Below, piece after piece: positions 1 to 58,902 of a stretch of DNA of 64,000 nt. The stretch comes from Owenia fusiformis (taxonomy: Eukaryota; Annelida; Polychaeta; Sabellida; Oweniidae). The stretch lies in contig CAIIXF020000011.1 of assembly GCA_903813345.2 (NCBI GenBank), forward strand, positions 16,909,754 through 16,973,753. Direction: 5' to 3'. A program made the position numbers and the translations under genes. The notes under the pieces were generated by a model. That model was not told the DNA's origin. It did no database searches and was given only the letters and a program-made list of their open reading frames with translations. Numbering within the stretch: the stretch's first letter is position 1; the number at the start of each line of letters is the position of its first letter.

Positions 1-3000
1 ACCTGGTAACTATAAAGACTGCTGCCAAAGTGATACAGAAACAATTAACAATAGGCAATCGCATGGGACTTTTAATCCAAAGGATCCTATCGAATACTTA
101 CAACCCGTTATACACTTATGTTAAGCAGTGATCTTTTAGTTTAGGAAAAGCCGGTGACCTGCTATCAGCTGCTGCAGAATGTAAACAAAGCCTGCATAGC
201 TGACTACCACTAAAGCGCTAATGTGTAACTTGACCTTTTTAACATTGCTGGCATTTGGTTGCTATTAAAAGACAGCCACTTGCTTGTGAGATGTAACTAG
301 GATTAGGGTTTCCCAATTTTGGGAGTAGTCTTAGTAAAATATGTCTGGGGGGCGTTTGCAGGAAGGGATCAAAACAATTTTTTCAATCCTGCATAGGCAA
401 GACAATTCTCTAAATTAACAATTTTGAATCAAGTTGATCCCTTCCTGCAATTTTGAGAGATTTAATGTTCAAGTTGCCAGAATGTTCAGAGAGAATACAT
501 TTATTAACTAACCAGCCTTTCATCAAGGTGCTTTAATCTGATAAACTTTCACTCAAATTAAGAGAAACCCTGGAAACATTAGAGGAAGGGGTAGTACTTT
601 CACAAAGTGTTAATTTCAAGACCTAACTCAGTATTAATTACAAGCTGTAATACTATTTTTAAGATGATCACACATTTTAGATACCAAAGAGTTTCTGTGT
701 AAGCATTAGGCCATATGGTGGGAAATCCTAGCAGTGACGTCACTCACTAGCTGATAAGACCAGCTTGAGTAGCATTAAGTGCACTAACTAAAAGTTCGTT
801 TACAGGCCAACATAACATAAGTGTATAGCATAGACACTCATTGCCCATTGTCCTCCAGTACCAACCACGTCATGCTCATTTCCCCTGTAATCGCCCTTGT
901 ATCCTGTACACTCAGACGAACTACCATTTTTGTTATATGTGCCATATCCGTCCCTTGAAGTAAAACAAATTCCACCATTCTGGACACCAATTACTTTTTT
1001 ATTATTGGCCGCCACAGCAGTGAAGCACTTCTTCACTTCCAAAACTCGATTCCAATAATCATCGTTCAAATAATCAATATCTTCGCCATCAATGTTCCAA
1101 TCCAGTGCTCTATCAAAGTCGTCCCCAAAGCATCCGAAATATTTATACGGAAGAGCTAAATAAAAACAAAAGCAATGCTGTTTAATCTGAGCTAAAGCAC
1201 TTGCAGAATATCATATATACGACACACTAAGCGCGGTCTAAATGTCGTTTCAAAAAATAATTATCGATTAGTAAAAAGCGTCATTCAAATATCAATACTT
1301 CTCTTGAGAATTCAAACCAGGAAATTATACCAGCAGGAAATTATCCTGGTATAGTCCACGAAACAACTAAATAGTATACATCACGCCTGGTGATTCGAAA
1401 ATATGACGGAGGGGGAGCAGACATTTTCTGCTAGAAATTGCCTAGAATGGATAGGCGCATGGTAAAATACGTTAGGCCTTCTAGGATGTTTTAAGCCGAT
1501 ACGCTTCGAAGATATGAGATCTATCAAAAAAGCGCAAGGCTACCAACGTCCACAAGTCAATGTTTTTGCTATAAGGTAAGGAACAATTTTCTACGCGACA
1601 TGTGCTAAATATTTTTCGTTATATAAAAATAATTAAAGCGGGATGGAGGGGGGGGGGGCGCAGGGGGAGGGGAGCAATATGTGTATTAGGTGGAACAATT
1701 TTACAAATATTCTTGTTTGTGAAAAATGAACACAGAACTCTAAGTTACAGGACATAAAGTTAAGTGACATCTCTTATCCTTTGTTGACATATTACCCCCA
1801 CTCCGCCCCCTCCCCTCCGTCCCATTTTAATCATTTTTTTGTATATCGTAGTCGTATGTAAACGTATATCTAATTAAAGTCGGCAATGGGATTCATTTCG
1901 TGATGATAATCTCACTTACAAGTATTTATTTCAGGTCGTGTAGACCATTGTTGCTTTATCCATGGCAAAACACTTTATTATGACTTGTGCATGTTGATGG
2001 CCTTTGCTATCGATATGGCGAACTGAATTAACACATGTTCTAAACCAGTCATCAAAAGTTCAAAAGATGGCAGCACTTGAACAATATGTCATCTGAATGA
2101 CATTCAAATAGATGGCAGCATCTCACTATGCTCATCCAATAACTAATAAGAAAAGCAAATTAAAAATAGGTATCGATATGGTGAGCTGAATTCAACAATG
2201 TTTTTCTCTTAAGCCAATTATTGAAAAAAAATTGTAAAAACACGGTCCTTTATGTAATTTTGACTGATTGGCAACAATTTAATGCAAAAATTATTTATGT
2301 ATGTATTTTTTATAACTGTTTCTGTTAACATTTTTGTACAAACGTTGGTATTTATCTGACTATATATATGAACTATGAAAAGTTAAATCTAGAATAATCG
2401 TGAAATATGATAGGAGTTGGTAAATGCAAGAGTAGCGACATTCCGCGTATTCGATAACCTAAAGCAGACTTTTGCCATTTGAGGTTATGTCCAAATAAAA
2501 GTGCAAGATAAGCTAAAATGGCAAAAGTCTGCTTTAGGTTATCATTCATATAGAACCAAACATATGGTTTTCATTGTTCACAGTAAACAGACTGTGGTTG
2601 TCAGTTCTTAGTAAAGTGCTTCATTAGTAACGTAATTGTTAATAAGAATTTCTCGACGGGCACTGTCTAAAAATGGCGAAAACTTACTCCCGTCGAGAGC
2701 TACTTAGATTTTGAAAGTATAGCTCTCTATCGCTAGAATCAACAGCTTAAGAATCCTGACTTCAAAGAAAATTTCAGGGAATTCAGCTGACTCATGTTGC
2801 ACATTATATACCTGAAAATGTTCCTACATCGCCATCTTTCATTCAACTCAACTATAGAACGTCTCACTGCCCTATGTATCGATCAGGACTTCATTTTATT
2901 GGTCGTGTCAAAAGTTTTGGCCAGGTATATTCAATATGGCGGCTTGACGTTTCCCAAGTTGCGCATGCGTCGATAGTATTTCCGTTTAACCGCCATATTG

Positions 3001-5896
3001 GAAATGGGTATCGAACAATAAACGATTAGAACTCCTGATCGCCATAGAAGCACATCCGCGATCCTGCAAAACGGGGAAAGTAGACACATATGTGCCCATA
3101 ATGTAGGCTACAGTTTGAGACAAACAGCAAGCCGTTGACTGGCGCTGATCAAAATTAGATGTCACCATTCTTCAGCTGGGAGATCCTCACGATGGAGAGC
3201 TATACTTTCAAAATCTAACATGGTAGCTCTCGACGTGAGTAAGCGAAAACATCTCCACCGCTGGATGTATCTCAACGTTGTTGACGATAATCCACACTAA
3301 TACCATGGGCTTTCAACTGTTTTAACTGAAACAAACCTAAAATATCCAACAAACCAAGTTATAACACAAATCAAAAAGTTCGACTCGTGTTCCGAGTCCA
3401 AGAGAGATATGAGCTCACCTAGCTAAATCACGCAGTAACTTCGTGTTCCGAGAAATCAGCGTTCTGATTGGTCGAGCTAGCGGATGCCTGTCGCTATAGC
3501 AAATAAACGCCATCTACTGGCAGAAATATTACGACTTCCGAGCCCAAAACTCGCTAGAAAAGTACCTTGAAACCATATAAAACAGAAAGACCTTATTACG
3601 ATGATTTAGGTTGATAATTATACTTAATGAAACCATCTAGATCTAGTGAAGTCAAAGGTGAATGACAAACCTTAAAAAAGTTTAAATATCGGGACTGAAC
3701 TCGATGGTCGTCACACTATTTTGTTTCAACAAGGATCGGACTATATTTTATTTCAAAAACCACAAAACATTTATAAAATATATATTTAACTAATTTTCGC
3801 ATTAAATTGTTAAATTAGTGACCATTACATAAAGGACCGTGCTTTTTCAATATGTTTTCAGTAATTGGTTTAAAAGAAAAACAATGTTGATTTCAGTTCG
3901 CCATAACGATACCAATCTTTTTGCCTCTGGAAGCCCGGCCATGTTGAAACGAAAACATCATGTCTTCATTTCCAGTGTTCCCCAGTGATAATATTATTTT
4001 GAGGAATTCGAAAAGCATAAACTTTTTCGACTTTCATTGGAACTGCAGTTTCTATGTAGATTTAATGAAGGATATTTGTAATGTAAATAAGTGTGTCGAT
4101 CGAGTGCTGATGTAACCAAAGCACACTAGCCAAATCGCATGTGAGTCCCATGATGTATAGAAGTATAGGGATATTAAGGTGTCACCCTGAACTTAACCCT
4201 TTCCCGACGTGAATATGAGAGGAAAATGTTGGCCCTGGTGACGGATAAGTAAGAGCAGTTTTTAGGGGAAAACTGAAAATTACCTATGCCCAGGGACCTA
4301 TTCCTTGAATTTTATCACTGAAATACATTTTTTAGTAAGGACTATCGTATTAGAACAACTTGTCAAAATTTGGTGTAAAAATACTGAATAGAACTGGAGA
4401 TATTATCATTTCATCGATGTATATAAATAAAAATTATGGTGCCAAAAGGAGCCTATCGTCCTGAAAGGTATTACATAATAGGGCTCCATATGGAGCCCAT
4501 CGTCGTGAAAGGGTTAAAAATGGAAAATACCAGTTACACATACCGCCAACAGTAATCCGAATACTATGTACGTAATACTCTTTGTCAAATGATAATGTGA
4601 ATGTTGGCACTTCACCACCATTAGTACGAGCACATGTTGTCGTATCACCATCAGTAGCTAGTGATGCCCAAGCGTGTATCTTGTCGTCCTCATCGTTGAA
4701 CTCATAATAAGTTGACGACTGGGATACATTTGATATCGGAATTACTTTGGTATTTGATGCGGCACATTCAACATCTAGAAATGTTAAAACATATAGTTAC
4801 TACAAACATATAATATGCGTATTCGTTGTTTTCAGGAACTCTATTCAGCAGATTCTAAATACAAGCTGGCTCACATATACTAATAGATAAGGACTTATCA
4901 GTTCAGTTTTGATGTTCTTATGACAACATATCTTTGAAATCAAAACAATAATTTCCTAACACGTTCTTTTCATTGAATATTGGAAATGGCAAACGCAGAA
5001 CTCATTTCGACATTATTCTTGATCCTTTACTGTTTTTAGTTTATATTAATCACCCTTGGTATACGCAGCTAACGAAAATTGACCGGTACGGGTCAAAAGC
5101 TGGACCAGTACGGGTTAACGGTTTATTTGAATTTAAAACAGCCATAACTTGCTCAATATTGACTTCCTCGTGTCTAATTTGAAATATATGATGCCTCCCG
5201 ATGCATTTAAGTACCCCAATTTTTTTACAGATTTTTAAACGGACCAAAACTCTCTAAATGCGCATTTATGCTCTTTTCTCTCGAGAACGACTGTCTCATT
5301 TTCACGAAAACTTTTATTTAGTACTTCTAACATATAAGATCTATTTTCCCCATCAAGGTATGATGTTAATGACATACTATTCACATCTTTTGAGTTTCAA
5401 TGACGCGAGTTTGATTTTATAAAAAATGCCAAACTTTGTGACAAAGAATTTCCTCCTGCTTGCAGCGAGAAGACGGACCGACACGTTTGCCCCGAACCTG
5501 TTTATATATGTATATGTATTTGTAAAAATTTCTATGATTAAAAGAAAAAAATCGACATAGACTACACTTCAGTATGTAAGTCCAATGCTCATACTATTTA
5601 CTTATGAAAGCTACATTTTCCCAAAAATATTTTAACAGCCATTTTGGTGAAATAATTATATTTTAGCCTGTGTCTATTTTCTCACAAAATACATAAATGT
5701 ATAATGTCATGAAAAATATATAACTACTACGTTTAAATGCGTATATGAGAATCTATAGAATTGAGCACTCAAGACTTAGTGCAATATAACAAAATGTCTC
5801 CAATAAAACGCATATTTGTATCTTACCATTGTTGATGATGCTCATTACAGCAAATACTGTAAAAACACTTTGTAAACATAGGTGTATGCTAGCCAT
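1..5896 (-). CDS. Receptor paralogue A, 5' part only (signal peptide, galactose-binding N-half, WSC-like exon split by a transposon)
   Basis: First three exons of the tandem receptor family; the gene runs leftwards out of the window. Exon 1 (5896-5827) gives a signal peptide starting MASIHLCLQSVFTVFAV and ends in phase 1 at GTAAGA. Exon 2 (4774-4544, 77 codons) is the N-terminal half of a fucolectin/F5-8C-like jelly roll, with QSSTYYEF, DGDTTTCAR and HSIRITVGG. Exon 3 starts at 1155 and encodes the WSC-like domain (FGCFGD, DRALDW, NRVLEVKKCF, GGICFTS). After codons Tyr-Ala it is interrupted by a 711-bp element (113-823, TA on each side); the remaining exon end is found at 112-102, followed by GTAAGT. 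Reading through, translation would stop inside the insert. Exons after WSC lie beyond the left edge. The copy is therefore probably disabled, or the insertion is an allele. A fragment resembling the WSC start also lies near 1320-1380. Confidence 0.7.
113..823. mobile_element. DNA transposon (MITE-like) inserted in the WSC exon of gene A
   Basis: The ends are inverted: CACTTATGTTAAG on the left and CATAACATAAGTG on the right, each flanked by TA (111-112 and 824-825). The outside sequence rejoins as a WSC exon end plus splice donor, as in paralogues B, C and D, which proves an insertion. An internal 16-bp inverted repeat (358-373 and 434-449) forms a hairpin. No transposase is visible, so it is non-autonomous. 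TA duplication suggests a Tc1/mariner-type partner. Confidence 0.8.
2169..3913. mobile_element. Large foldback element with about 90-bp inverted arms
   Basis: The left arm (about 2169-2260, from ggtatcgatatggtgagctg) matches the right arm (about 3825-3913) in inverted orientation at roughly 85-90%, including the stretch cacggtcctttatgtaat. A second inverted pair lies inside (about 2653-2745 and 3178-3265, sharing gattttgaaagtatagctct), so a second foldback element has probably inserted in the first. A part-copy of the outer arm also lies near 2010-2090. No coding capacity is recognised. Confidence 0.6.
4197..4513. mobile_element. TTAA-flanked MITE in gene A intron 2
   Basis: The inverted ends are CCCTTTCCCGACG and CGTCGTGAAAGGG, each bordered by TTAA (4193-4196 and 4514-4517). 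TTAA duplication is known for piggyBac and Kolobok families. The inside is non-coding, with a short inverted motif around ggagccta / ggagccca. The matching introns of B and C lack it, so it inserted after the paralogues separated. Confidence 0.7.
4975..5560 (+). mobile_element. Deleted CR1/Jockey-like LINE relic in intron 1 of gene A
   Basis: The segment 4975-5060 encodes the reverse-transcriptase block PLLFLVYIN. It aligns base for base with 43340-43425 in intron 1 of gene C. The LINE 3' end (about 5500-5560, containing tgtatttgtaaaaatttc) also matches C (about 45605-45660). The middle is replaced by unrelated sequence (about 5060-5490), so this copy has lost most of the LINE since the duplication. 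Confidence 0.7.
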
Positions 5897-7238: not shown

Positions 7239-7308
7239 GGGATGAGTTGTCTTGGGATGAGATGTCTTGGGATGAGTTGTCTTGGGACGAGATGTCTTGG
7301 GATGAGAT
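7239..7308. repeat. 15-bp minisatellite, about 4-5 units
   Basis: Tandem units of gggatgagttgtctt with single-base variants. The unit is a multiple of three, which keeps a frame open on the minus strand (HPKTS repeats); this is not taken as a gene. Confidence 0.8.
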
Positions 7309-9856: not shown

Positions 9857-12800
9857 TTATTTCTGGTATTCTTTTAGTTGTTCATAAACATGGCTTTCTG
9901 TATCATCAACTTGCACGCCATCTTGAATACTGTCATCCTTGTCTAAATACGTCGATGTTTGTCCATTTATTTCTGCCATTTGTTTATTTGCCCTTGAATC
10001 AGTATTTTCATACTCAGGTTCCGCGGTTGCTTGTCCGATATCTAACGAAGGTTTCATTTCAATTTCAGCATACTCCATACTCTGGTCAGGTCGATCCGTA
10101 GGAAATGATTCCATATTTTGGTAGTCCTTGTCCGTTTTACTTTCTGATGTGTTCCTGGAGCAAATGACGAAATTCATAAATAACAGCAAAATTCGCCCAT
10201 ATTTTACATTTTCGACTAAACATTTTCATTGATTATTTTAGAATTCGAATACTATATCTATTACAAAGCATATTTTTTCCTATCGCTACTACATATACAC
10301 CATAAATTTATTTGATGAATAAACTAGACATCAGAACATTTTTCACAAGTTTTACCTTTTGTTTCGCCTGAGTAGTACAGCGATAACGACAATTAACAAC
10401 AGGATACACAGCGCGCAACCTATCGCTACCCCAATGATTGCATCCACCGGCTGTTTTGTATTGGGTTGCATAGTGTAATCTTTATTTCCTCCTTTATTAA
10501 AGAATAGTAAAATATAAATACTATACAGAGGGTTTACAGACATATACGTATAAATATCTGCAACACTTACGCAACATCATATTGTTGTGAAAACTGTTTA
10601 ATCAACATGAGACATGAATGTGGTTTATCATTGCAACGTTAATTGTATTAAATTAAAGTGAAATGATGTCTACATATTCTTAAACTGCTCTCACAGAGGG
10701 AATTAACAGCAGGCGTCCCATTAATCTTGTTTTCATTTTTTAGAACATCATGAGTAGTTGCAATAATTCTATCCTTCACCACGTTTCTTAATAATATATC
10801 GACATAAGAGGTACATTGTAAGAAGCATTACAGCATCGTTAGGTAATACGTTATGAAACAAAAATGAAACCGTCGAACAGATGAAAAGTTGAACAGCATT
10901 TGTTTATGAATATTCACCCCAAGACTCTAAAATACTAGCTATCATTTTAAACCAGTGCTGAAAGTAAGTCTATCCATTTTATGGATTAGATTTAACAATG
11001 CAAAATGTTTCAAAATATTATGTATTGTATTATTAATCTCATCTAATGCCACGTTACGCTATCAAGAGGTTTTGCGGTTGCCAAATGGTGGTGAGGTGTT
11101 AGACTACAATGAAGCGATAAGTACCTGTTTGAAAAGATCCTTTCGTAGCAGGTCCGTAACCAGCTTTTGTGGATGCTTTAACTTCACATTCATACGTTGT
11201 CTCAGACTCAAGATTACTCACAAATGTCTCTCTAGTCACAGACGCAAGAGTTTGTTTTAAAACAACGTATGTTGCGTTTACGTAGCATGTCACCTTAACG
11301 AGAACAGAAAATTTGCAACTTCTAATGTGGAAAAAACTAAAAATCGGCAACTCTTTTGAGTAGCAAATCCCAACGAACACTTTATTCATGAATCTTTTAT
11401 ACAGTTTGGTCAAAAAACGGCAACCTTAATTTTTCCTCATATCTTTCAAATTTCGCCCTGATATTTTGCACATATGTATATCATTCAATTTTGTACTAAA
11501 CTATATTATTTCATGGACATTGGACTGATAGTCGCAATTGTTACAGCACTTAAAACGAGGTGCCCCAGTTGGCCAACACTGTGCTGTTGGCAAACCTGCG
11601 CACGTTTCCAAACATGTCAATGACACAACTGCATTTCTCAGCAAGCATGGAAGGAACGACACATGTGATCTTAATTTTGAGGTCAAATGTTGTTCTGGTG
11701 ATATAACCCTACACTTTATCTTTGGGGTATCCCCGCTGGTAAAGATTATATGGGACCATATCTTGGCTATGGGGTGCCCATTCATTGTCTGTTGTACTGC
11801 CGATAATGTGATCATTGAAGTGGTCCCAAAGCCATTATTGCGCATCATTAGGTGTATAGGGTATGGTCTGTCTTGTTGGAACCACTGCTGCGGCCTATCA
11901 ACCCCCTGGGTTCACCTGTTGACAGTTATTGGATATCCGTTGGCATCATCAAAGGTAAAGGACCCTTTCTTCTTAACTGTGCATCTGTCTATGTGAAGGT
12001 GCCTCTGCACTACTTCATCAAGTGCTTGGCTCCCCAAGAATACATAATTGTTACCAGGGTATCAAGTTGGAAATGGAGTTCATCTAAGTAACAGACCAGT
12101 TCAGACAGCCCGAAAGTGGCCATCTGGGGCATGTTCCTTAAAATGCAGTAATATTGTGACTATCAGTCCTATGATGGTCATGAAATATAATAAGTTGGTA
12201 GGAAATTATTGTGTTTTTGAATTAAAACCAGGTTAATGGAATTGATCATTCGACCAATACGTTACGCCTCTTGCGTATCTCTTCTCGCTCCACACACTTC
12301 AGTAACTATACATTCGAGCATCTTGTATTCAGTCAGTCAACAGTCAACATACTCTCGTTTTCATTATTCTTACAATACCATCATTCATACGTTTTTTACT
12401 GTATTACAACTTTTTCTTGAACGACAATGGTCTTCAGATATCAGCATCATTTGCCGAACAACGTTGCAACAGAAATAGTTTGGTTTACCATAGAAAAAGA
12501 AGAAACTGCCCAGGACGAGTCTCTGAATCCACTGGAGATACAGAATCACGTTAGTGAATAAGGACACTTAAATGTTCAAGAGATGAACAGACGTTGTATA
12601 TAAAGAGTTAATTAACAGCCCCATCAGATGCACTGGGCTGATAGATAAAACATATTTTCCCATCTTGGATATCTCCTCGTAATTATGTGCACAATGTGCT
12701 TCAGAACCAGATGGCATTTGTGATAAACTTTCGATGATCATTTCATCAGTTCGTCATTATATAACATTCGAGTGAAAGCGGGATTTATAAAGTCAAGGAT

Positions 12801-29783: not shown

Positions 29784-30736
29784 GAGTTGTTCATAAACAT
29801 GATTACCCGCGTTATAAACTTGGATGCCTTCTGGAATAGTCTCAACCTAGTCAGGTTCTCCAGTTGCTTTCCTATCAAAAATGTTCCCTATGTCCAGCGT
29901 AGGTTTCATTTCAAACTCTTCATGCTCAATACTCTGTTAAGGTTATCCTGTCGTGATTGATTCTTTACTTGGGTGTCTGTTTTACTTTTACTTTCTAATG
30001 CATTTTGTGCCCCACATACATTATATGTTTATTATTCACCATTACAAAGATTATTACCCAAATCGCTCCCCATGTGATTTATAATGGAGACACTTTTGAA
30101 ACGCTTACTGTGCACGTGATGTTGACTAAACACCTTGGGTTTTGTTTGATGACCAAGCTGTATAGCTACTTCATATATTTTTCACAAGTATTAACCTTCT
30201 GATTTTCCTAAATAGCACAGCGATAACGACAATTGATAACAGGATGCACAGCGAACCGACTGCCGTCAACCCAAGAGTTTACATACCTATTTGCAGAAGG
30301 CTTATGAAACAGTAAATTTTTGTGAAAAAAATGTTCAATGGGGTAAATGGGTTCAATGGGTGAATGTATTATTGCAATATGAATTTTATTGAGTTAAAAT
30401 GTAAATTATGTCTACATATTCTGATAATAAAACGTGTTCTACAGTATTACAAGCAATTTGACCTTACGCCAAGAGTGTAATTTATCTGTGGCTGAAGCTT
30501 GTAAAATAACAGAGGCACAAAAATGATAAAAAACTATTGAAAAATCGAGGACTGATCCCCGCGCCTGCATACATAAGGGTAATAAGCTCTATTGCTAGGA
30601 GTTGTGTTTAACAATTAACCGACTCTGTTTGAAAAGATCCTTTCGTAACAGGTCTGTTACCCGCTTTTGCGGATGCTTTGACTTCACACTCATACGTTGT
30701 CCGAGTCTCAAGACTACTGACGAATGTCCCTCTAGT
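29784..30736 (-). pseudogene. Psi: decayed remnant of the last three receptor exons
   Basis: Three blocks match the 3' exons of genes B, C and D in order: final FN3 exon (about 30736-30623, still readable as ETRTTYECEVKASAKAG-like), membrane-helix exon (about 30275-30181) and tail exon (about 30007-29784). All have lost frame by several indels and stops, and the FN3 block is cut off at a gtttgtttgttt run. No upstream exons follow before gene C. The fragment shows that at least one more receptor copy once stood between B and C. Confidence 0.75.
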
Positions 30737-44000: not shown

Positions 44001-46486
44001 TAATGCCAGGCATATCACAAGGGGCCTTACTTAAGAGAAAACGTATTAATATTAGATTGAAGCCGTAAAATCCTAGTTTCCAGCATCTTTGATCAGTTTT
44101 TGTGTAACACAACGCAACTCCGAAGAGGATGACACATCTTATGTATAATATATAGCTAGATCTACGAATTAGTCATGAATATTTTAAATAGTTTAGCCTG
44201 CTCTGTCCAAATATGATACATCTTTGAATTTTTGAGAATACGAATGTCACTGGTGCCCCATTATTGGAGAATACGATTGTGAAACAATCAGTGGGCCGTG
44301 TTACACTCGTTTCCATGACATTTCACAAGCGTATCCTCTGGGAAAAGATAAATCCTTCTCTTGCTCACTCTACGGGGGATCATATAAACTGAGATTTGGA
44401 GATCTTGTTCAGGTTAGCCATAAAAAGGTTTGGGATTTGTTTTTTTCTACTGTGATATTAATGATTTGGCTCTAAGGCGAGAAATCTGTACTTTCTGATT
44501 GATATTCCATTATGAACAGTTACATTGCTAAAATAGCTCATGTTTAACATTTTTTTGTTACATTACTATTAAATACAGCATAAACTATATTCAACAAACA
44601 CAATTTCAAAAAGGATAATATAGAAGTTAACCTTTATTTTCCATTTTTAAGCAGCTGTGCCTCTCATGACTTTCCAAAACAGGTCATATTCGTAGCCTAA
44701 GAACCGGTCATACTCAATATACGCGGATACTCTAGTTACCCGTGTATAAGGCAGCCTGTTTATGCTCTGGAGTCATTCATGGCACATCGTGTACTAACGT
44801 TTTGAACTGTTTAAATTGGACATCATTAGTGGAAAGACGGAAATACAACCACAATATTCTTGTGTTTAGATCGCTGAATAATTTGGTACAAGCATGTGTT
44901 TCAAGTATTTTCCAAAGATACCGTAGACATCATACAGTTGACGTTCGAAGAATTGCTCCTTTTCAAATCCCAACTAGAATTACATCATTTTCAAATAGAT
45001 CCTGTATTTTACAATCAATGATGGATTGGAATTCCCTGTCAAAGCGCCTTATAGAAGGTGAGAATTTAAGTATATTTAAGTCAAGGGCAAAGGAAGAATT
45101 ATCCAATTCAATTATTCGATCCTCTGAACTTAATATTCCAAGAAATCAAGAAGTTATACTTAACAAGGTTCGTTGTGTCTTAATTTTTAAGTCACATCTA
45201 TACTCCCACAATTCTACAAACGTTACTTCACCTGCATGTCAATGTGGCCATGCAAATGAAACAATAATTCAAGTTATTTTTTCCTGTATACTTCCTGCTC
45301 CATTCTTAGAAGAGTTGGAATACAATTTTAGCTTTTCTTAATTTTGGTTATTCTAATTTTAAACCCAAGAGGGACAAAGTAGAGTTATTTCTTTATGGGG
45401 ATTCAACCTTAACAAAATCCACTAATTTGAAAATCCTCAAGCTCACTGCATCATTTTTAGAAAAATGTGCAAATGTGTAGGTTTCTCTGCCACCACTCAC
45501 TTCACTCTTGAGTTCATATTTAATTTTTTTTCTTCACCCTGCAATTATTAATCAAGTGGCTGATAATGCCTTCAGCAAAGCCACTACAAGTGTACAATGT
45601 TTATATATTGTATATGTATTTGTAAAAATTTCTATGATTAAAAGAAAAAAATCGACATAGACTAGACTTCAGTATGTAAGTCCAATGCTCATACTGGAGA
45701 GGTTAAGCAAATACGGTTTTTCAAAACGTATACGTAAACGCAAAGTACATTGAATCAACATAGGATTGTATCGCTTTAGTCTACTTCAGATACCCGTTCA
45801 ACTTCAAAGTTGCGTGTTTAGAACGGGAGATTTTTAATTTCACGTTGCTATCAACGGGAATCATTATACTCATGTCTGTTGAATACTATCCTTGCAATTT
45901 TGATTTCGATGCAGAGTATAATTCTTTCTGAAGAAGATGATGTATGTTACGCATGATTTAACTCGAATAATCTTACGAAACGAGCTCGTTTAAAATATGT
46001 ATTAGAAAACCAGCTATTGAACTTCATCAATGGCATACTATGTAATCATTACAAGCTATGGTGTAGTCTAAAGAAACACTAGAGCTGAACGGCTATTTAT
46101 GTGTGAACTCTACATGTATTTGTATAGGGGCGATTGATACGTTTAAGTTGCGTTTTGGATTTTATACGGTAGCTTAACCTCTCCACTATTTACTTATGAA
46201 AGCTATATTTTCCCCAAAATATTTTAACAGCCATTTTAGTGAAATAATTATAGTTTAGCCTGTGTTTATTTTCTCACAAAATAAATAAATGTATAATGTC
46301 ATGAAAAATATAACTACTACGTTTGAATGCGTATATAAGAATCTATAGAATTGAGCACTCAAGACTTAGTGCAATATAACAAAATGTCTCCAATAAAACG
46401 CATATATGTGCCTTACCATTGTTGATGATGCTCATTACAGCAAATACTGTAAAAACACTTTGTAAACATAGGTGTATGCTAGCCAT
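32083..46486 (-). CDS. Receptor paralogue C: full-length multidomain membrane receptor, 14 exons, about 897 aa
   Basis: Hand-built exons: 46486-46417, 43144-42914, 41310-40984, 38534-38313, 37392-37195, 36517-36380, 36174-36031, 35837-35514, 35344-35244, 34455-34239, 34135-34029, 33758-33584, 33083-32948, 32386-32083; total 2694 nt, open throughout, with the same intron phases as gene B. Approximate domains: signal peptide 1-23 (MASIHLCLQ); jelly-roll N-half 24-100; WSC-like 101-209 (HFGCFGD, ERALDW); PAN-like 210-283; jelly-roll C-half 284-349 (LSICDIKAYG); EGF 350-395 and 396-443; FN3 444-551, 552-657, 658-751; helix in 752-796; tail 797-897. In the tail, VEYEEV fits the ITIM consensus; PEYVNA and HVYEQL are kept, while the DYQNM and TYLD tyrosines of B and D are absent. 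Introns hold truncated duplicates of three exons and many elements. Function in recognition signalling is inferred from domain order only. Confidence 0.82.
34617..34695 (-). pseudogene. Partial duplicate of an FN3 exon in gene C
   Basis: Matches most of exon 9 (35344-35244) with the reading NATYDFVITPSLNHTGPST, but lacks the exon 3' part and its splice donor, and the acceptor side is altered. It probably arose by a local tandem duplication of about 640 bp, since flanking intron sequence is also similar. Confidence 0.7.
36865..37112. mobile_element. MITE in gene C intron 5
   Basis: Inverted ends agccaggccacaggaaaa and its imperfect mirror ttttccgatggccaggct, about 28 bp each, enclose about 190 bp with no coding sequence. 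Target duplication is not clear. Confidence 0.55.
38550..39180. repeat. Palindrome-rich repeat cluster in gene C intron 3
   Basis: Motifs such as cacctgcggtatatggcata and their mirror atgccatataccgcaggtg recur many times at 38575-38645 and 38935-39175. The outer ends, tgttacgcggta and taccgcgtaac, are inverted, so the whole may be one element with subterminal repeats. Confidence 0.6.
39724..40116. mobile_element. Foldback MITE with about 110-bp arms, TA-flanked
   Basis: The left arm starts gagtccatttcactgcttca and the right arm ends in its mirror, agcagtgaaatggactc; the arms match almost perfectly over about 110 bp. TA borders both ends (39722-39723 and 40117-40118). The short minus-strand frame over it is not a gene. 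Confidence 0.8.
40257..40384. mobile_element. Short foldback MITE (128 bp)
   Basis: Almost entirely two inverted arms: gggaggttaagataagcg to atacggatag on the left, mirrored on the right and ending cttaacctccc. TA lies on each side. Its end resembles that of the element at 45696-46184 (ggagaggttaagc), suggesting related families. Confidence 0.75.
40610..40829. mobile_element. Mariner-type MITE (220 bp)
   Basis: Terminal inverted repeats CAGGGTGTTTCATAATG and CATTATGAAACACCTTG with TA duplicated at 40608-40609 and 40830-40831. Length and ends fit a non-autonomous Tc1/mariner element. Confidence 0.85.
41430..41660 (-). pseudogene. Two truncated duplicates of the WSC-like exon in gene C
   Basis: Just upstream of the real WSC exon (41310-40984), 41532-41430 repeats its first third with its own acceptor-like CTAG (reading FGCFGDDWDRALDWNIDEED). 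Further up, about 41660-41592 holds a more decayed copy (YFSCFGYYKDRALVWNFEES). Neither has a donor or a complete domain. The nearer copy differs from the real exon by only a few bases, so it is recent. Confidence 0.75.
41701..42118. repeat. Two adjacent inverted-repeat structures in gene C intron 2
   Basis: 41701-41972 is bounded by ttatcctacactt and its mirror aagtgtaggataa, and contains three 28-bp palindromic units (cggaggatatcgtgacgata and variants). 41975-42118 is a second hairpin with arms sharing cctatgattttttt and gatattgatat around cgttcgcttcgctctc. Both look like non-autonomous foldback elements. Confidence 0.6.
42727..42822 (-). pseudogene. Truncated duplicate of the jelly-roll N-half exon in gene C
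   Basis: Reads TNGGEEPIFTLSF and HSIRITVGG, followed by a good donor GTATGTGC, exactly like the 3' half of exon 2 (43144-42914), but its 5' half is missing and there is no acceptor. Confidence 0.75.
43340..45660 (+). mobile_element. CR1/Jockey-like LINE in intron 1 of gene C
   Basis: The 5' piece reads reverse-transcriptase blocks PLLFLVYINDLPENLH and YIYADDNSLHQSF (the catalytic F/YADD box) with some stops. After a nested transposon, a 199-codon frame (44745-45341) reads the LINE C-terminal region: LNWTSLVERRKYNHNILVF, TRITSFSNRSCIL, WNSLSKRL, and CQCGHANETIIQVIFSC. The non-coding 3' end runs to about 45660. The same LINE at the same intron position in gene A shows insertion before the A/C duplication. 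Degenerate and truncated at the 5' end. Confidence 0.8.
43830..44744. mobile_element. DNA transposon nested in the LINE (915 bp, TIRs about 45 bp)
   Basis: Inverted ends run CACGGG...ACTAGAGTATCCGCGTATAT through gagtatgaccggttcta, about 50 bp on each side. The LINE sequence is duplicated as TATAAG at 43824-43829 and 44745-44750, and removing the insert restores the LINE frame at LYYKAACL. No transposase is recognised inside. Confidence 0.85.
45696..46184. mobile_element. 489-bp transposon with 3-bp ACT target duplication
   Basis: Ends ggagaggttaagc and gcttaacctctcc, with ACT at 45693-45695 and 46185-46187. Intron 1 of gene A (about 5595-5610) has the empty site ctcatactatttactt, so the borders are exact. 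Non-coding inside. A 3-bp duplication fits PIF/Harbinger- or CACTA-type elements. Confidence 0.85.
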
Positions 46487-49214: not shown

Positions 49215-52200
49215 TCATTTCTGGTGATCTTTAAGTTGTTCATAAACATGATTGTCTGCATTATCAACTTGCACGCCATCTTGAATAGTCTCAGCCTGGT
49301 CTAAATACGTTGATGTTTGTCCATTTATTTCATGCATTTGTTCACTTGCCTTTGAACCAGTATTTACATATTCAGGTTCCACGGTTGCTTGCCTATCAGA
49401 AATCTGTCCGATATCTAACGAAGGTTCCATTTCAATTTCATCATACTCAATACTTTGTTCAGGTCGCCCCGAAGGTAATGATTCCATATTTTGGTAGTCT
49501 TTGTCCATTTTACTTTCTGATGTGTTCCTGAAACTGATGAAGAAATTCATACATAAGAGCGAAATTCGTCCATATTGTACATTTTCGACTAAACATTTTT
49601 TATTGTCCATTTTAAAATTTCAAATTTTATGTTTAATACAAAGTTAATTAAATTGAATTGATTTTGCGAATGCCTTTGATAGGTTAAAATCGTTCGGTCA
49701 ATATTCGTTTCTTAATCTGTTAATCAGGTTATATTATGAGTAATTTTCTTTTAAACTAAGCATATAGTAGTTAATATGTTGTCTTTCTTTTAAGTAATAC
49801 AATTTAGTTGTAGCATTATGCCAAATCCATAAGTAAATGTCTGAACCACCCTACCTATAGGATGTCGAGCCTTTTCATAACTACAGCTACCCTCAGTACA
49901 TTTTCCCTTCCCTTCTAATTCAATCTTTAAATACTTCACAATGCCAATTGGAGTCATTATATGCAATATGTACTAAGGCATGAATGTTTATAACTTCTGT
50001 AAGACTGTTTCCCCATTCTTTATCATGTATTCTATCAATGTTTTCTGCTTCAACTTTATTATTTCGAGCCATATTCTCCAATATTTCATACATTCATGAG
50101 AACTTTGATAACATCATAAAATCAGTTGATTTTTTCAAAATGTTTGAAGAGTATGTTTACGGTCATTATTGGCATGATCAAGAAAACAAGATGGAATATT
50201 TTGATATTAGATTCACTTTTGCCATGAGAACAAAACAAGATCTTGTTTAAATCTAAGTTGACAGTTTATGTGAGTAAAAGCATGATTGGTAATATTGTTC
50301 TTTAGATATTACTAGTTTTCTTTTTACAAAATGATATGGACCACTGAGTCATCGCCTTGGTTACTATAGCAACCGTAGAATGTTAAGAAGAGGTATATAT
50401 ATTAAACCTTAACATTGTAAGGGAATAAGATGGGGGCACATACCTACTAACTACGAACAGGATTGGTTCATTATTTTCATAATTAGATATATTTGTGCAA
50501 AACATTTTGAACAACGCTTGTATATATACAACATTTTATTTGACGAATGAACTAGACATCGGATTACTGCTCACAAGTTTTACCTTTTGTTTCGTCTGAG
50601 AAGTACAGCAATAATGACAATTAATATCAGGATACACAGCGCGCCACCTATCGCCACCCCAATGATAGAACCTACATGCTGATTTGTATTGGGTTGTCTT
50701 GTGCATTCTTGACTCCCTCCTAAATCAAAGGGATAGTAAAACATAAAGAACGTACAGAGACTCATAAATAGAAATATTTGCAAACGACTTACGAAACCAC
50801 ATGTTGTTTGGGAAAAATTGTTTAAACGAACATCAGACACGTGTATGGTTGTATAATTGCAATGTTAAGTGTATTGAACAAAAATGGAATGATGTCTGCA
50901 TATTCTGATACTATACTGCTCTGACGTAGCAAACTGACAACAGGTTTTCAATTTCTTTTATTTACATTTTTAGAACATAAGTAGTTCCAATCATATCCTT
51001 CAAGTTTGACATTAGAGATACACTCCCCTCCATAAGTTTGGCAAATTTTTCCCCCCATTGAACTACGTGTTAAAGCCTCTTTACCTTTGAATTTTTATTT
51101 ACCAAACCTGCGATGAAAATACAATTGATGGAAACGTAATTTGACTTTAATTCCAATACCTCCAAAATTTTTCTCAATTTTTTTCCTCAATTACAATAGG
51201 TCGAAAATTGGTGATAAATTTGATAAATTTTTGAAAATCGTCATTCCCATGTTAACCAATGGGAAATGGTAGGTTTGCCGCAAGTCATATGACAGAATAT
51301 CCATCCATCCGAGTCCTTGCAAAAATACGAGTAAGGCAGGAAATTGAATTTGCTAACTTTATTTAACAAAAAATTAATATGTTTCTTCAGGTTCAACAAA
51401 GTTATAGGGCTTTAAAGTCAAAATTGTTTTTCGAAAAACCTCTCCCATTGAAATAACACAAGAGGCGAAAAATTATTTTCAAAAATGACTTTGAAGCGCT
51501 GTAACTTTAATATTCATCAAATAAACTAAATACTTAGTGTTCAAAAAAGTTAGACAATTCAATTTTCTATATAAAAATATTTTTTGCTGAATCTTTTACT
51601 GAAAAGATATCCTGATTTCTGATTTGCCCCGAACCCTTCATTTCCCCAATGGATTACATGGGAATGACGATTTTCAAAAATTCATCAAATTTATCATCAA
51701 TTTTCGACTTATTGTAATTGAGGTAAAAAATTAAGAATATTCGGAGGTATTGGAAATAAAGTCAAGTTACGTTTCCGTCAATCTTATAAGTTATTTCATT
51801 GCCGGTTAAGTAAATAAAAATTCAAACGTAAAGAGGCTTTAACAGGGAGTTCAATGGGGGAAAAATGTTGCCAAACTTATGGAGAGGAGTGTAAGTCGCA
51901 TTAAAAAATCGTTGAGGCTATGAATATTGATAATTAAACCGTTGAGCAGATGAAAACATAACATTTCTATGTTATATTATAGGTCAATCTGAGTCTCCAA
52001 ACAACTGGCTGTTACTTTATACCCGTGCTGAAACATATTGATTCGGATACGATTAACAAAAGCACAATGTTGCAAATATGTATCTTAGAAAATCTTTGAT
52101 ACACTCACTCTATAAGTTGTGGTGGCGTGTTTTCATTACGTTAAATTATGGGCTTATTGAAAGCGAGTGATTAAATCAATGACTTAATGAATTGATATAG

Positions 52201-55200
52201 ATCGCCAAACAGGCATTAACCTGTGACCAAACTTTCAGAGTCCACGCTTGTGGAGGGGCTGAGGGCTACCATAAAGCAAGGATCCCTGGCTACGGATTGA
52301 TGTAATAGAGGGCGTTCAGGAAATAAAGCTAATTTTGCTCTCAAACTTATATTTCTTGTCTACCGGAAGTTGGTAGAACGACACCAGTTAAGTGTGAAAG
52401 CTAGGGGAAATTATTTTGAACATGAAATGGAATGTTAACTTGATGAAAGAAATATCTAGCAGCACTATGATCAAAACATAGACATAACGTTTACAAAATC
52501 TACTATGCTGTGAACTATTTTGAAGTTATATTAATTATATCTCAATATTTTTTTCTTTTCGGTGGAATTAGGAAAATGTCAAATGCTTCTTCTCTGAAAA
52601 TTTGAATGATGAATGACAAGAAGTAAAAGTTTGAGAGCAAAATTAGATTTACTTACTGAACGCCTTGTACAATTACCTGTTTCTGTTTGAAAAGAGTCTT
52701 TCGCCACGGGTCCATAACCTGCTTTTGTTGATGCTTTGACTTCACACTCATACGTTGTCTCAGACTCAAGATTACTGACAAATGTCTCTCTAGTCTCAGA
52801 CGCCAATATTTGCTTTAACACTACGTATGTTGCGTTTACGTAGCATGTCACCTTAACGGGAAGAGAAAACATACAATTTCCAATGTGAAACAGTTTAACT
52901 CAATAAAACATGTCACGCCCTGATAACTTAATAAATCAGTGTTCTGAACCAAGGGGCCTTCCTTAAACCTTTCAAAGTGAGTCTTTAATTTCTTATTTCA
53001 GAACTGTCAAGGATGGGGACAATTATTTATATCAGTAATTATCAAAACAATTAGTTATGAAGATTTAAGCGAAGGATGTACACGAAGTTACGGTTTACCT
53101 GATACGCCAGCAATCGGCCGTTTGTAAACTCTGGAATATTCCATGTAAGATGAAATGATTTCGTATCACTTGCTCTTATACGAAGATCTTTTGGTGGTGA
53201 TGGTTCTGAAAAAAAACAGACATCGTGTCTTTCAAGAAGAAAAGATTTAAAAACAGAATTATAACGTTCACCTCAAATAGATACTCACTATCAGCAGGAG
53301 TCACTGTGTCAAAGACTAAGATCTTTGGACCCTCAAGATCTGCATTATTTACCATGGAGAGTTCTACTTTGTATTGGGTTTCAAACTCAAAATCTTCATT
53401 TGTGAGTTCTATATTCTCCTCGGATGTATCCTTCAAATACTCTCCATTTCGATAAATCTTGTAGGTTTGCATCTCGTCACACTTTATTTCGTCTTTTATA
53501 GGTTCCTAAAGCAGAAACACAAAATAAAAACTTCTAAATTGTCTGTTTCCCTTTTGAGCCAGCATTGCTACTCTTCTACTCATACTTGTATGTATTCTGG
53601 GCGTATTAAAGTATGGCCTTACAATCGTATATCATGTTGTTATTGATACGTATGTGACAAATATTAGAGGTCATAAGTTACACATTTTAAGAAATATATT
53701 GACTCACAATGATTTCTGTTCTCTCTCGATTCACTTTTCCAGGGACCTAATTACAGAGGACCATAATTCTAGATTCTAGATTAAAAACGTGTATCTTTAC
53801 CTTCCTAATATCGCTAATTTGGTTCAATCACTTGTGTTTGATATCAGCTCGTCGATAAAATGATACAATAACCATTCAAAATTATATTTTATATATACTC
53901 ATTACACTTGCAAAATTCATGTTCAGTTTCAAAGGTCCTACAGTGGCTATTTACGTACATACCATCCATCTTAATTTTGCAGTTAGAGTTGATTGCTCTG
54001 TGTGATCCGAGGATGATGTTATGACAAAGTCATATGTGGTATTCAGTGTCAAATAAGTTGGATCTAAACGAAAGAGGAAAAGAAATACCATGTGGTTTTC
54101 AATGCTCCTATTTAAAATGCTAATTTCCATTCATTCATTTTGAATTTTAAGGAATGCACATTCCTGTTTCACATTGCGTTTAAGTACATTGTTTAACAGG
54201 AGGTTCATTTTGAACTGATTTAGAGCGATATTTTGCATTTACCTCCGCATGTAGTAAATGGATCACTCCAATCAGATGTTGCGCCTATTTTTATATCACT
54301 AACTTCATATGGGTACAATGCTGACACACGGAAAACAAAAATGCTATCCTTTGATAAGTTGTCAATTCTTGCCATCAACCCAGAACTGTTAATTGATTCT
54401 ATATTATCATCTTCGTCTGAGGAACTTCTGTATTCAACTCTGAAGGATTTTGTAGCTGCGGTATCATGTTTGATAGTACTCTTAACATCCAAAACCTTCC
54501 ATTCTATCTCAATGTAATCGGCACCCCGACTCTTGAACGTAGGTTTACCATCTATTTTGAGAACCTCTGAAATTACAAGTTGAATTCAATCATGCTTTGA
54601 TATATACGATTATAATGCTAGAGAATTACAACAAAGGTAATTTAACAAAAATTAGCAAACGTTTTGTATTACTGATTCAAAAACGAAAAAAGCAAGGGTA
54701 CCTTGATTACAAGCGTATTTTGGATAGTAATTATATTCACAATTACCACTGCAAAAACCATCTTCCCTTTGACAATCGTCGAGTGTCTTGCAATGTCTCG
54801 TACACTCCTTAGCACAATTGATTCCCCATTTTCCAGCAGCACAACCTGAAAGTGCATTTCATATCTATTGAAGTGGAGGGAACATGTTTTCCGATCAGAA
54901 ACATTCATTTCGATTCCTTAGTACATCCCTGTTCATTGTTTTCAAAAAGTGCCTATCAATTTGAAAATGTTTTGCTTTGGTTCAGTTTCACAGTGTCAGC
55001 TTTGTTCTCTAGCTAAGTGAATCCTACAAATTCATATCAAATTCGCAGTGTCAAATATCTTAGTAAAGACATTTTCTGGTTTTACGGTGTCAACCTTGAT
55101 GCAGTCTCTGAATTGTAAAGAATTCATAATTAATGAATATATACAGGGTGTCTCAAAGATATATACCCAAAAGTATATCAACAGCACAGATAAAACAATC

Positions 55201-58200
55201 AATATTTTAAGACATTTTTTGCACGGTCATGTAACCAAAACATGAAAGTTTGCTCCCCGATACACCATATTTATTTCAGTCTTGCCTTTTTGATGCTTTA
55301 ATCCTTTACCTTCTACACCACACATCCAATGTAACCCCATATTTCGATGACAGCCTGTTTCCTTACTGCTACGTTGTTCATCACAAATGATTCAGGAGTT
55401 ACCTTCCAGACTTACGCAGGCTAGCCTGGAGACCAAATGATATCGAAATGAAAACGCAGTGGTCTCAAATTGCTTGAGTCCCTCTTCACCCAACAAAGGC
55501 TACAATAGAATCCCACCCAATGCAGTTTATTGAACGTCTGACCTCTCTGTATAAGGGGGCTATAAGACATTGTGAGGGCCTCCCTATTTGCCAGATTTGA
55601 TCTGGGGCTATCTGAAGGACCATTTTATGCTAAACCCAAAGAAAGAGACCTGGAACAACTTAATTAAGACGAGCATCAGAACAGAAATCAAACCATTCCA
55701 CCAGAAATATCAAATATTAGGAACATTGTAGTAGTAAGGATGCAGAATGCCATCGAAATATGAGGTTATATTGATTATGCGGTGTAAAAGTTAAAGGTTT
55801 TCAGTATTAAAAAGATAAAATGTTTTGACTACATGACCATGCAAAACATGTCTGAAAATATTGATTGGTTTGTCTATGCTGTTGATATACTTTTGGGTAC
55901 ATTTTTTGAGACACCCTATATATCTACTTAGGCATTCTCTCTTAGGACCATATCCAGCCATGCAATCCCCGGGACACCATCCATTAGCCTTGACACAAGT
56001 ATCACCAGCTTTGCACTTTCTGAAGCACTCTTCACAGGAAGCACCAAAATGGCCATCAGTACACTCTAAATAAAAAAGGATGAAAGCACATCTGGCATAC
56101 ATATGAGGCGAGGGATATGTAGAGATCATGTTGTTTATTTTAAATAAATCTACGAAAGCATTCCTCACATTCGGGTAGACTTGTTCCGAGATAAATATTG
56201 TATATTATATTTATGATCATGTTACATTTTAAATGATTGGTGTACCTCAGGTCTCAAAAGGTATGAAAAGCATACAAAATGCAAATATGCTATATTCAAC
56301 CAATATTATTGTATTCAAATCAAGATTCTGTGAAGTTCTTGTATTTTCTTAAACAGCTTTTCTGAACTCTTTACGAGTTTTCTGTTTTCTCGATTTAATT
56401 CTTAGAAGTCAAGCTGTAAATTATAATTTGGCACAAAGCTAGAAAATATAGTCTTAACAAGTTTCTTCGATTTGGAATTTGTTTTGTAAATAAAGTTGCA
56501 ATTTATATATTTAGCCCCTCGCTTTTGTTACATTGACGACTTACGTCAATGATACAAAAGCGATGGTCTAAATGCATCAATTACGGCTTTATTTAAAAAT
56601 CAAATTACAAACCAAGAGCATTTCTAAAAGCTAGACTATATTGTCTAACTGTGTGCCGCATGATAACCCGCAACATGACTTATACGTAAGTTTGAATCGA
56701 AAAAACAAAAAACTTGTACCCAGGAAGTTCATATCCATTTTGTTACATTGACGTTCCGTTAAAGTGACTAGTTGTGGAACAGTGTAAATGCACGGCTATT
56801 TATAACATGATTAAATCGATGTTATAAGTGTTTCTCACCGTACACCTCTATGTCACATATTGACAATACTGTACTAGAAGAAGCAGTGTTTTTTATTTTG
56901 ATTGTAAGTTCATTTGTCGGTTTGGAAAGGCAGCCAATTGTCTTGTCATCTTTATGACCAAATGCTTTCTCCTCACATTTTTCTCCACTGGGCTCCATTG
57001 TCACTTCTAGTGTTTGGTTTCCAATGTTATCAGGATCTAGAATAAGTCAATATGAATAGTAATCTAAATTAAATAACATGGGTACAACTAGTTGGAAAAT
57101 GTTTAATTTCGTCTCATATCGTCAAGATCTCAACATAAATAAATAAAGACCTATATTGAATAATTAATTGAAACATAACATCAGTACGAGAGATAATAAT
57201 GTGTCTGTGACAATGTGCATAAAACTAAATTAGAGCTAACAGTTGCAAACTTATACCCCACCTGCTATGAGATTGTATGTGTATATGCTGTCTGATTCAG
57301 ACCCGTAATTTCGGCATATATCTCCAAAGTATTAACAATTCTGCTTGCCGGGTTCAAACTCAAACGCACCACAGGAGCCAGACAAGTCGCATTTAGTTTT
57401 GCATTCTTGAAATGTAGATGCAGTGAGTTCTCCATTTTTGGCATCGTTGCACTTGTTACGTGTTACACTGTAACGCAGTGGATCTGGAATATATTATACC
57501 TCTAATAAATTAATACATTCAAACAAAAGATTGCTGTACAAATTGTACGTTTAAATATCTCTGTGGAATTTTGTATTGCTTTTAGAACTAAGATAGAAAA
57601 TCCATGATGTCATATGTTAAAATATTGAGATAAGAAACAATGACATGATGAAAATGCTATTGAAGAATAGTTGAAGAATAAATACTCAAAAATATTACAA
57701 TCTACTTGAACTACAACAAAGAGATGCAACACACCCACGTACATTGGAACATCACTAAAACATCCCGAGTCAAAACAATCCCATTCACTCATCTTAGTTT
57801 AAATGAAATATAATATCTTAGTTTCCATAAAATTAGTGTTTCACTAATTAAGAAATATTGATATTCATCCCATGATTTTTCTACTTCCCGGTGAATATCA
57901 CCCGGAAATATTTTTGATATTGAAAATATTGATATACAGCGTTTTATATTGATGTTCTTATGTTAAACTATATTTTCCAAACATAATTAAAAAAGAGATT
58001 TTGAAAAGTAAAAAGTATATAAGCCTATTAAATATAGGAGAATTGTAATTTATCATCATGCTCTGACACAGTCAACGTCATAGAAATCTGAGGAATATGC
58101 GAATACCCTGTGATGGACACGTATTGTTAAATTTATTTGATGTTGATGTGTTTATGTTATAGAATTTTTTTTAACATTTCAAAGTTAAGTCATATTTTGT

Positions 58201-58902
58201 AGACTAAATAATTATATAGTCTGGTTTTGTTTCATACAAAAATCAGATATGGATTTTGAACTGATGATTTTATGAAGAGAGTCATGGAATAAAAAGCTTA
58301 TTTAGTGATGTTATTTCCCCTTGGCCCTCTAGGCCCCCCGGGAAATATCATATTGTCCCTAGAAATAAAGCCAATTTTGAATCTGTATATAGTCAACATA
58401 AGAGAGATTTTCCACTTTGCCTCTTATCCCTCCTTTATCTAAACCCGGAACACATCAAGCACATGCGTCTACTAGTAAAAAAGCGATTGCAATATCTGCT
58501 AGATAGCCTGATGACCCGGTGATACACTCGGAAACAATTAATATCCATAGCATATGCATGACAAATATCTTATCGAGCACTTACAACTCGTTATTGCATA
58601 GACACTCAATGCCCATGGTCCTCCAGTATCGACCGAGTCCTTATAGTATCCTGTACAGTTAGTTGACAAGCCATATTTGTTATATGTGCCATATCCGGAA
58701 CGGGAAGTAAAACATTCTCCACCATATTCGACACCAATGATTCGTTTCTGGTTTGCCCTTGCAGCAGTGAAGCACTTCTTCACCTCCAAAACTCGATTCC
58801 AATAATAATCGTTTAGATAATCTATATCTTCGCCATCAATCCTCCAATCCAGAGCTCTATCCTCTGTGTCTCCAAAGCATCCAAAATATTTATACGGAAG
58901 AG
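49215..58902 (-). CDS. Receptor paralogue D, 12 exons visible; 5' exons missing and an in-frame stop in the PAN exon
   Basis: Exons: 58902-58585 (WSC-like), 57483-57262 (PAN-like), 57036-56839 (jelly-roll C-half), 56065-55928 and 54845-54702 (EGF), 54566-54243, 54063-53963, 53505-53289, 53205-53099, 52851-52677 (three FN3), 50719-50584 (membrane helix), 49527-49215 (tail). Sizes and phases equal those of B and C. The PAN exon has TAA at 57334-57332, where B and C have a lysine codon after QNC/QDC, so translation would end in the ectodomain; this may be a true null, an allele or a base error. Signal-peptide and jelly-roll N-half exons were not found up to 64000 and may lie beyond the transposon there. 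The tail keeps DYQNM, IEYDEI (ITIM-like), PEYVNT, TYLD and HVYEQL. Apart from the stop, all exons are open. Confidence 0.75.
51021..51891. mobile_element. Tc1/mariner-type MITE with about 240-bp inverted arms
   Basis: Ends CACTCCCCTCCATAAGTTTG and its mirror CTTATGGAGAGGAGTG, flanked by TA (51019-51020, 51892-51893). Arms of about 240 bp are roughly 85-90% matched; the middle has no transposase. It lies in the intron between the last FN3 exon and the membrane exon of gene D. Confidence 0.85.
52311..52663. mobile_element. MITE 13 bp from the splice donor of the last FN3 exon of gene D
   Basis: Inverted ends ggcgttcaggaaataaagc and its mirror ending ctgaacgcc, with long similar arms (ctaattttgctctcaaact). 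The right end lies just 13 bp inside the intron from the exon end at 52677. The corresponding intron of gene B shows no such sequence. Confidence 0.7.
55144..55918 (+). mobile_element. Mariner transposon relic in gene D
   Basis: Ends CAGGGTGTCTCAAAG and TTTTTTGAGACACCCTA with TA on each side (55142-55143, 55919-55920). The decayed inside still reads PDLIWGYLKDHF and NNLIKTSIRTEIK on the plus strand, like the C-terminal catalytic region of mariner/Tc1 transposases. The right end lies 8 bp from the first EGF exon (ending at 55928), so the splice donor GTAGATA is all that separates them. Confidence 0.85.

Follow-up and report, generated by a model that had tools for sequence, protein, structure and literature searches.

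A tandem array of tyrosine-tailed receptors related to receptor-type protein tyrosine phosphatases in the annelid Owenia fusiformis

What kind of receptor is encoded by a cluster of genes that join a jelly roll, WSC, PAN, EGF-like and FN3 domains to a transmembrane (TM) helix and a tyrosine-bearing tail? The question is raised by a 64,000-nucleotide stretch of Owenia fusiformis DNA (the window; positions 16,909,754 to 16,973,753 of contig CAIIXF020000011.1, here C11), which holds copies A, B, C and D of such a gene and a remnant, psi. Positions without a contig name are those of the window, negative ones lying below its first base. The family is kin to the receptor-type protein tyrosine phosphatases (RPTPs) and carries the tail in place of the phosphatase. 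We slightly favour the reading that the window covers a section of a tandem array of type I receptors, derived from a phosphatase and acting as paired receptors.

Organization of the receptor array

Comparison of the window with itself, together with exon alignments, revealed direct repeats of exon-size blocks that represent paralogues arranged head to tail on the minus strand. Splice sites were set by aligning these blocks copy against copy, and each exon was run by tblastn over 244 kb (the window plus 180 kb of flank). The array extends beyond the window on both sides. At least 59 matches to the protein of copy C were found in the genome, all 59 on the minus strand of C11:16,874,648-17,022,863; 51 of 133 candidates were scored and the counts are lower bounds. 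A single-copy conserved gene with an unusual domain order is rejected by these listed matches, which lie on one strand within C11:16.87-17.02 Mb.

Copies B and C have uninterrupted 14-exon models of 899 and 895 amino acids (69.6% identity), with AG/GT borders at 13 of 13 introns and the same intron phases (1,1,1,1,1,1,1,1,0,1,0,1,2). The WSC donor was then shifted 3 bases on, to the GTAAGT position of D and Z (see below), which gives both proteins one more residue. The PAN-to-tail exons of A lie below base 1 (-880..-7134, tblastn); this copy has lost the usual WSC donor and is open in all exons located. Copy D has a TAA inside its PAN exon (57263-57481); between D and 95.6k neither a signal exon nor a first jelly-roll exon was found. 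An open signal exon at 96.2k and a first jelly-roll exon at 95.6k, beyond the window, may belong to D across a gap of ~37 kb. Two further tails, E and F, lie in the flank at 101.5k and 114.8k (tblastn), and relic exons at 97.9-100.2k and 112.9-113.2k.

A preliminary description of the window had proposed a tandem receptor array of intact and broken copies, with an unusual domain order, a tyrosine tail and two complete 14-exon models of about 900 residues with identical intron phases. All of this was recovered in the exon models and the tblastn survey. It had missed the split jelly roll, the kinship with RPTPs and the mosaic divergence described below, and its four gene-size copies and remnant on one strand need qualification: B and C are complete, A runs below the window and the PAN exon of D has a stop.

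A tail in place of the phosphatase

Copy Z, which adjoins A at -23.4k to -35.5k and onward, carries the ectodomain exons of A-D followed by two phosphatase domains (PF00102, 2.7e-66 and 3.2e-30). Z and A-D have 11 ectodomain exons and the phases of the TM exon in common, as would RPTP-derived genes with the phosphatase removed. Downstream of FN3c2, Z continues with a TM exon (phases 1 and 2), juxtamembrane exons, a first protein tyrosine phosphatase (PTP) domain (D1) with the motif HC/SAGVGRTG, and a second (D2). In A-D the tail replaces the phosphatase at the phase-2 intron after the TM exon. The best solved relatives of Z D1 are RPTP alpha and S.

A second phosphatase gene, designated L049, was located at C11:17.104-17.113 Mb (D1, 1.1e-69), where 10 kb of gene and 10 kb below it were covered. 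Among solved two-domain chains the closest to its D1 are LAR and RPTP S, and among single-domain receptor chains CRYP-2/PTPRO and PTP10D; three of the FN3 exons of L049 are 49-59% identical to FN3 exons of the tyrosine-tailed E and F. A genome search with the Pfam phosphatase profile gave 99 matches, 12 of them on C11:16.81-17.18 Mb and four just after Z on the same strand. None of the 99 falls in the window, and PF00102 is absent from the B and C proteins. The phosphatase exons of Z and L049 had no match in the window at E <=0.05; one match of 21 residues, with a stop, had an E of 0.34. Copies A-D have no cytoplasmic PTP domain and do not qualify as RPTPs; Z and L049 do.

We infer that the swap went from phosphatase to tail. 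For one tail unit, at 17,097k, RPTP juxtamembrane relics lie 2-3 kb below, and the 5 kb above its TM segment contained no match to three FN3 queries. Such a unit would be consistent with the tail exon having arisen between the TM and phosphatase exons of an RPTP; the alternative is a separate partial duplication.

Tyrosine tails

An immunoreceptor tyrosine-based inhibitory motif (ITIM) follows the consensus [SIVLT]xYxx[ILV], the activating counterpart (ITAM) is recognized by the spacing of its two tyrosine motifs, and YxN is of the Grb2 type. The tails of A-D hold 3-6 tyrosines each and keep a YxxI/V followed by an acidic residue, a YxN and, at the end, YEQL. The strict ITIM consensus is present in four of six tails (C, D, E and F), and E and F have two YxxI motifs separated by 9 residues, a spacing like that of an ITAM. 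Alignment of the six tails showed 23 invariant columns, three of them tyrosines; the E and F tails hardly differ from one another and are 40% and 38% identical, respectively, to that of C. The combination of motif content (YxxI/V/L and YxN) and a phosphatase twin makes it likely that A-D are signalling receptors.

A genome search with the tail gave 16 matches from 18 candidates, consisting of 8 tails and 8 TM-only segments. The tails are those of A to F, one at 17,097,275 and one at 28,673,877 on the opposite strand. The last is a distant tail-like exon (C11:28673877-28674152, plus strand; 39% identity, E 0.003).

Selection and unequal divergence of the copies

The array copies are under purifying selection. 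The pooled ratio of nonsynonymous to synonymous divergence (dN/dS) was 0.33-0.39 in all ten pairs of A, B, C, D and Z; the Z pairs were compared without signal, TM and tail, the D pairs without signal and first jelly-roll exon, and stop or gapped codons were dropped. Single-exon values ranged from 0 to 1.26, omitting two pairs with a dS of zero. The tail gave values below 1 in six of six A-D pairs (0.43-0.88), a weaker constraint than on most other exons, and the WSC and PAN exons gave 0.22-0.61 over all pairs. The pooled exons showed no sign of positive selection, and in that sense the earlier label 'fast-changing' does not apply.

These values bear on two alternatives. If A-D were decoys or dominant-negative forms, which bind the ligand of the phosphatase or dimerize with Z and do no more than titrate it, the tail would matter little. 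The idea, suggested by a shared head without a catalytic domain, is improbable in view of the three tyrosines invariant among six tails and the constraint on the tail in every A-D pair. Equally improbable is a cluster of duplicates that is mostly in decay and retains one or two working genes: psi, the broken D and the relic exons would belong to such a cluster, but B and C are open throughout, A is open in each exon found and all ten pairs are constrained.

The head and stalk base of the copies diverge unequally, so that the copies are mosaics. Between C and Z, 48 of 443 third positions differ from WSC to FN3a, compared with 81 of 196 in the inner pair of FN3 domains.

A jelly roll with nested domains

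The WSC and PAN exons sit between the two exons of the jelly roll. When exons 2 and 5 of C were joined, they matched positions 2-87 of the 91 of Pfam F5_F8_type_C_2 (1.4e-5, 26.0 bits), and the joined halves of B matched positions 2-86 (4.7e-5, 24.4 bits), both slightly under the curated cut-off of 27.8 bits. The first half of C alone matched positions 2-38 (3.1e-4), and exon 5 of C alone matched no relevant Pfam profile. Searches of the PDB sequences with the joined jelly roll, and likewise with WSC, returned matches at chance level only. The missing halves were sought in nine introns (exon 2 to WSC of A, B, C and Z; PAN to second jelly-roll exon of A, B, C, D and Z), with at most two matches kept per query, and nothing convincing was found: the best match, in B, was a run of 10 residues resembling the start of exon 5 (E 0.003), the rest had E >=0.037, and three of the introns leave little room, with 646 and 421 bp covered in B and 219 bp in D.

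The seven exons from exon 2 through FN3a all have phase 1-1, and the reading frame is kept whichever of them is added or skipped. WSC and PAN probably entered the jelly roll by exon shuffling. The common phase would also allow nested and skipped isoforms to coexist, the jelly roll being whole only when the WSC and PAN exons are skipped. This complement to the paired-receptor reading agrees with the joined match to one F5/8 profile, and it would render the lost WSC donor of A and the PAN stop of D harmless; against it, the WSC and PAN exons are themselves constrained, and we consider such skipping rather unlikely.

Pfam WSC was matched in five of five copies at E <=1 (best 2.5e-5), the WSC of C alone giving 0.016, under the curated cut-off. 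Pfam PAN was matched in four of four copies at E <=1 (best PAN_1, 9e-5 and 22.7 bits; cut-off 21.4). In the whole C protein PAN_1 was under the cut-off (0.013) and WSC was absent from the matches listed. An AlphaFold2 (AF2) model of PAN has the order strand-strand-helix-strand-strand at low confidence (61.5); in Foldseek none of its 84 matches reached E <=0.001, the top four (E 0.47-1.9) being plasminogen, the N-terminus of which is a PAN domain. The WSC model was too poor for use (pLDDT 40). Pfam fn3 was matched in the C protein at 3.1e-14, best in FN3c, and by FN3a alone at 0.0053, under the cut-off; FN3b and FN3c have intron phases 1:0:1. The EGF-like pair had no Pfam match at E <=0.1 and was assigned by cysteine pattern only, and NCBIfam gave no match for 4 proteins. 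The domain labels given previously differ in strength, FN3c being clear and FN3a weak.

Elsewhere in the genome, weak PAN-exon matches (14, E 3e-6 to 0.9) cluster at C5:4.19-4.21 Mb and on C256, possibly another tandem family. Five FN3-like exon matches at C11:17053-17061k (window coordinates 143272-151672), spaced by ~2.08 kb, form a tandem repeat.

Comparison with known receptors

Uroplakins UPK2/3 and tunicate CionaNocat are described in the relevant passages of PMC5242461 as PTP-less relatives of R3 RPTPs, with a short tail that bears phosphorylatable tyrosines. A-D resemble them as RPTP kin without a phosphatase, with a tyrosine tail and a phase-2 intron just after the TM segment. They differ in that UPK2/3 and CionaNocat derive from FN3-only R3 RPTPs, whereas the head of A-D has jelly-roll, WSC, PAN, EGF-like and FN3 parts, stands in tandem beside a phosphatase with a related head, and is joined to a tail with several SH2-type motifs. 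UPK2/3 proper has a short FN3-like juxtamembrane ectodomain with a CNGPL signature, and the ectodomain of A-D is a multidomain head of another kind. An FN3 stalk and a TM segment are shared with RPTPs in general, the PTP domain by Z and L049 but not by A-D. To our knowledge the array head matches no RPTP subtype. In the part of PMC5336234 concerned, PTPRO has the FN3 phase pattern 1:0:1 and R3 RPTPs a C-terminal YxN.

A different role is conceivable, in which A-D, like R3 RPTPs and uroplakins, are receptors of adhesion or development derived from RPTPs, and the tails serve epithelial or neural contact and not foreign or allogeneic recognition. In its favour, FN3 phases of 1:0:1 and a phase-2 intron after the TM segment are among the patterns described for those two groups (PMC5336234, PMC5242461), and the copies are under purifying selection. 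In our judgement a tandem array with relics and unequal divergence would be unusual for such receptors, and the head is not made of FN3 alone; we regard this role as unlikely, though less so than decoys or decay.

Pairs of receptors that activate and inhibit are familiar from vertebrates, where they act in immunity. Like Siglec-11/16, CEACAM1/3 and CD300A/C, as far as the abstracts describe them, the array copies have related heads and different cytoplasmic parts, and those abstracts report gene conversion of the head in Siglec-11/16 and of the CEA family in general. Here a phosphatase domain would stand against a tyrosine tail, and not ITIM against ITAM, and the heads are unrelated. The Botryllus fester and FcoR allorecognition receptors are likewise clustered invertebrate receptors with ITIM, hemITAM and YxxI/L/V tails, but their heads are Ig or sushi, and the passages of PMC12065747 that treat them mention no phosphatase partner with the same head. 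The titles and abstract openings listed in literature searches contained no description of the architecture of the array or of a tandem RPTP/tail array.

Proposed mechanism

In the mechanism that we propose for paired receptors, the head (a jelly roll interrupted by WSC and PAN exons and carried by a stalk of two EGF-like and three FN3-type domains) would in its several versions bind the same or related ligands. Kinases would phosphorylate the tails of A-D and SH2 proteins, known partners of such motifs, would be recruited. Z, drawn to the same site by its related head, would strip the phosphate and set the balance. Exchange among the copies would keep the heads alike, while stalk base and tail would remain type-specific. 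The shared ligand, phosphorylation, SH2 binding and any role in defence or self-recognition are presumed.

Several points weigh against this proposal. The A and B tails miss the strict ITIM consensus (M at -2), and A-D do not have the ITAM spacing. The phosphatase exons of Z were joined by homology, with splice borders checked for some of them; no signal exon was found for Z and its D1 has GWLDHSAP in place of the usual WPD, so that Z may be weakly active or not expressed. Nor do the dN/dS values point to an arms race. The two halves agree in their best unrooted tree, ((A,D),(C,Z),B), and exchange between copies is therefore deduced from depth of divergence, not from conflicting topology; its direction is likewise presumptive. 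Acquisition of a foreign stalk base by Z would look much alike, and dS in the pairs A-C, B-C and C-D is also somewhat higher in the inner FN3 block, with overlapping intervals. Splicing as modelled is presumptive, the models being built from genomic sequence.

The fuller version of the paired-receptor reading is tentative and, in our view, doubtful: an invertebrate paired-receptor locus built on RPTPs, with one lectin-like head borne by a phosphatase and by several phosphotyrosine-tail receptors alike, with heads matched by recombination and distinct signalling halves, in which enzyme and substrate are steered to one ligand, and with a jelly roll that holds a removable in-frame WSC-PAN cassette. 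If the locus works in the way proposed, one receptor evolved in parallel, in an invertebrate, as phosphatase and as substrate. This would be a second way of arriving at paired signalling and, next to uroplakins, another instance in which RPTPs became tyrosine-tail receptors. The locus would also exemplify exon shuffling into the interior of a folded domain.

Features of the window

Coordinates of the receptor copies are collected in Table 1.

Table 1. Receptor copies, exons and fragments in the window.
Feature	Coordinates	Strand	Remarks
Copy A, 5' part	824..5896	(-)	exon 1 5827-5896, exon 2 4544-4774, WSC 824-1155
Copy B, complete gene	26161..9857	(-)	
Copy B, exons 1-7	26095-26161, 24443-24679, 23451-23792, 22129-22350, 21502-21699, 19591-19731, 19258-19401	(-)	
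Copy B, exons 8-14	18812-19135, 18567-18667, 17795-18011, 17603-17709, 11125-11293, 10356-10491, 9857-10154	(-)	
Remnant psi	29784..30736	(-)	FN3c2 30626-30736, TM 30198-30275, tail 29784-29969 with stops
Copy C, complete gene	46486..32083	(-)	
Copy C, exon 1, signal peptide	46417..46486	(-)	MASIHLCLQSVFTVFAVMSIINN; kept in A, B and C; phase-1 donor GTAAG
Copy C, exon 2, jelly roll first half (F5/8-like)	42914..43144	(-)	Pfam F5_F8_type_C_2
Copy C, exon 3, WSC-like	40984..41310	(-)	Pfam WSC; 3-nt donor correction
Copy C, exon 4, PAN	38313..38534	(-)	Pfam PAN_1; AF2 fold
Copy C, exon 5, jelly roll second half	37195..37392	(-)	completes the profile once joined to exon 2
Copy C, exons 6-7, EGF-like pair	36031..36517 (36380-36517, 36031-36174)	(-)	cysteine pattern, splice sites
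Copy C, exons 8-12, three FN3-type domains	33584..35837 (35514-35837, 35244-35344, 34239-34455, 34029-34135, 33584-33758)	(-)	Pfam fn3
Copy C, exon 13, TM helix	32948..33080	(-)	hydrophobic segment, phases 1 and 2
Copy C, exon 14, tyrosine tail with stop	32083..32386	(-)	VEYEEV, EYVN, HVYEQL
Partial duplicates within copy C	41427..42820	(-)	WSC 5' piece 41427-41528; jelly-roll 3' piece 42728-42820
Copy D	49218..58902	(-)	WSC exon through tail

The window contains no tRNA and no Rfam family at the gathering cut-off. An open reading frame (ORF) in an intron of copy B (20358-21464, minus strand) has a zf-RVT match (3.4e-6) and is likely a retroelement piece. Self-alignment showed ~13 tandem copies of a unit of ~140 bp at 27475-29372, with inverted relatives at 31216-31815. 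A Mutator-like transposase ORF (61797-62972, PF20700, 5.8e-31) lies with a second ORF behind it at 60837-62972 on the minus strand. The pair is flanked by identical 345-bp stretches at 59836-60180 and 63656-64000, the latter cut by the end of the window.
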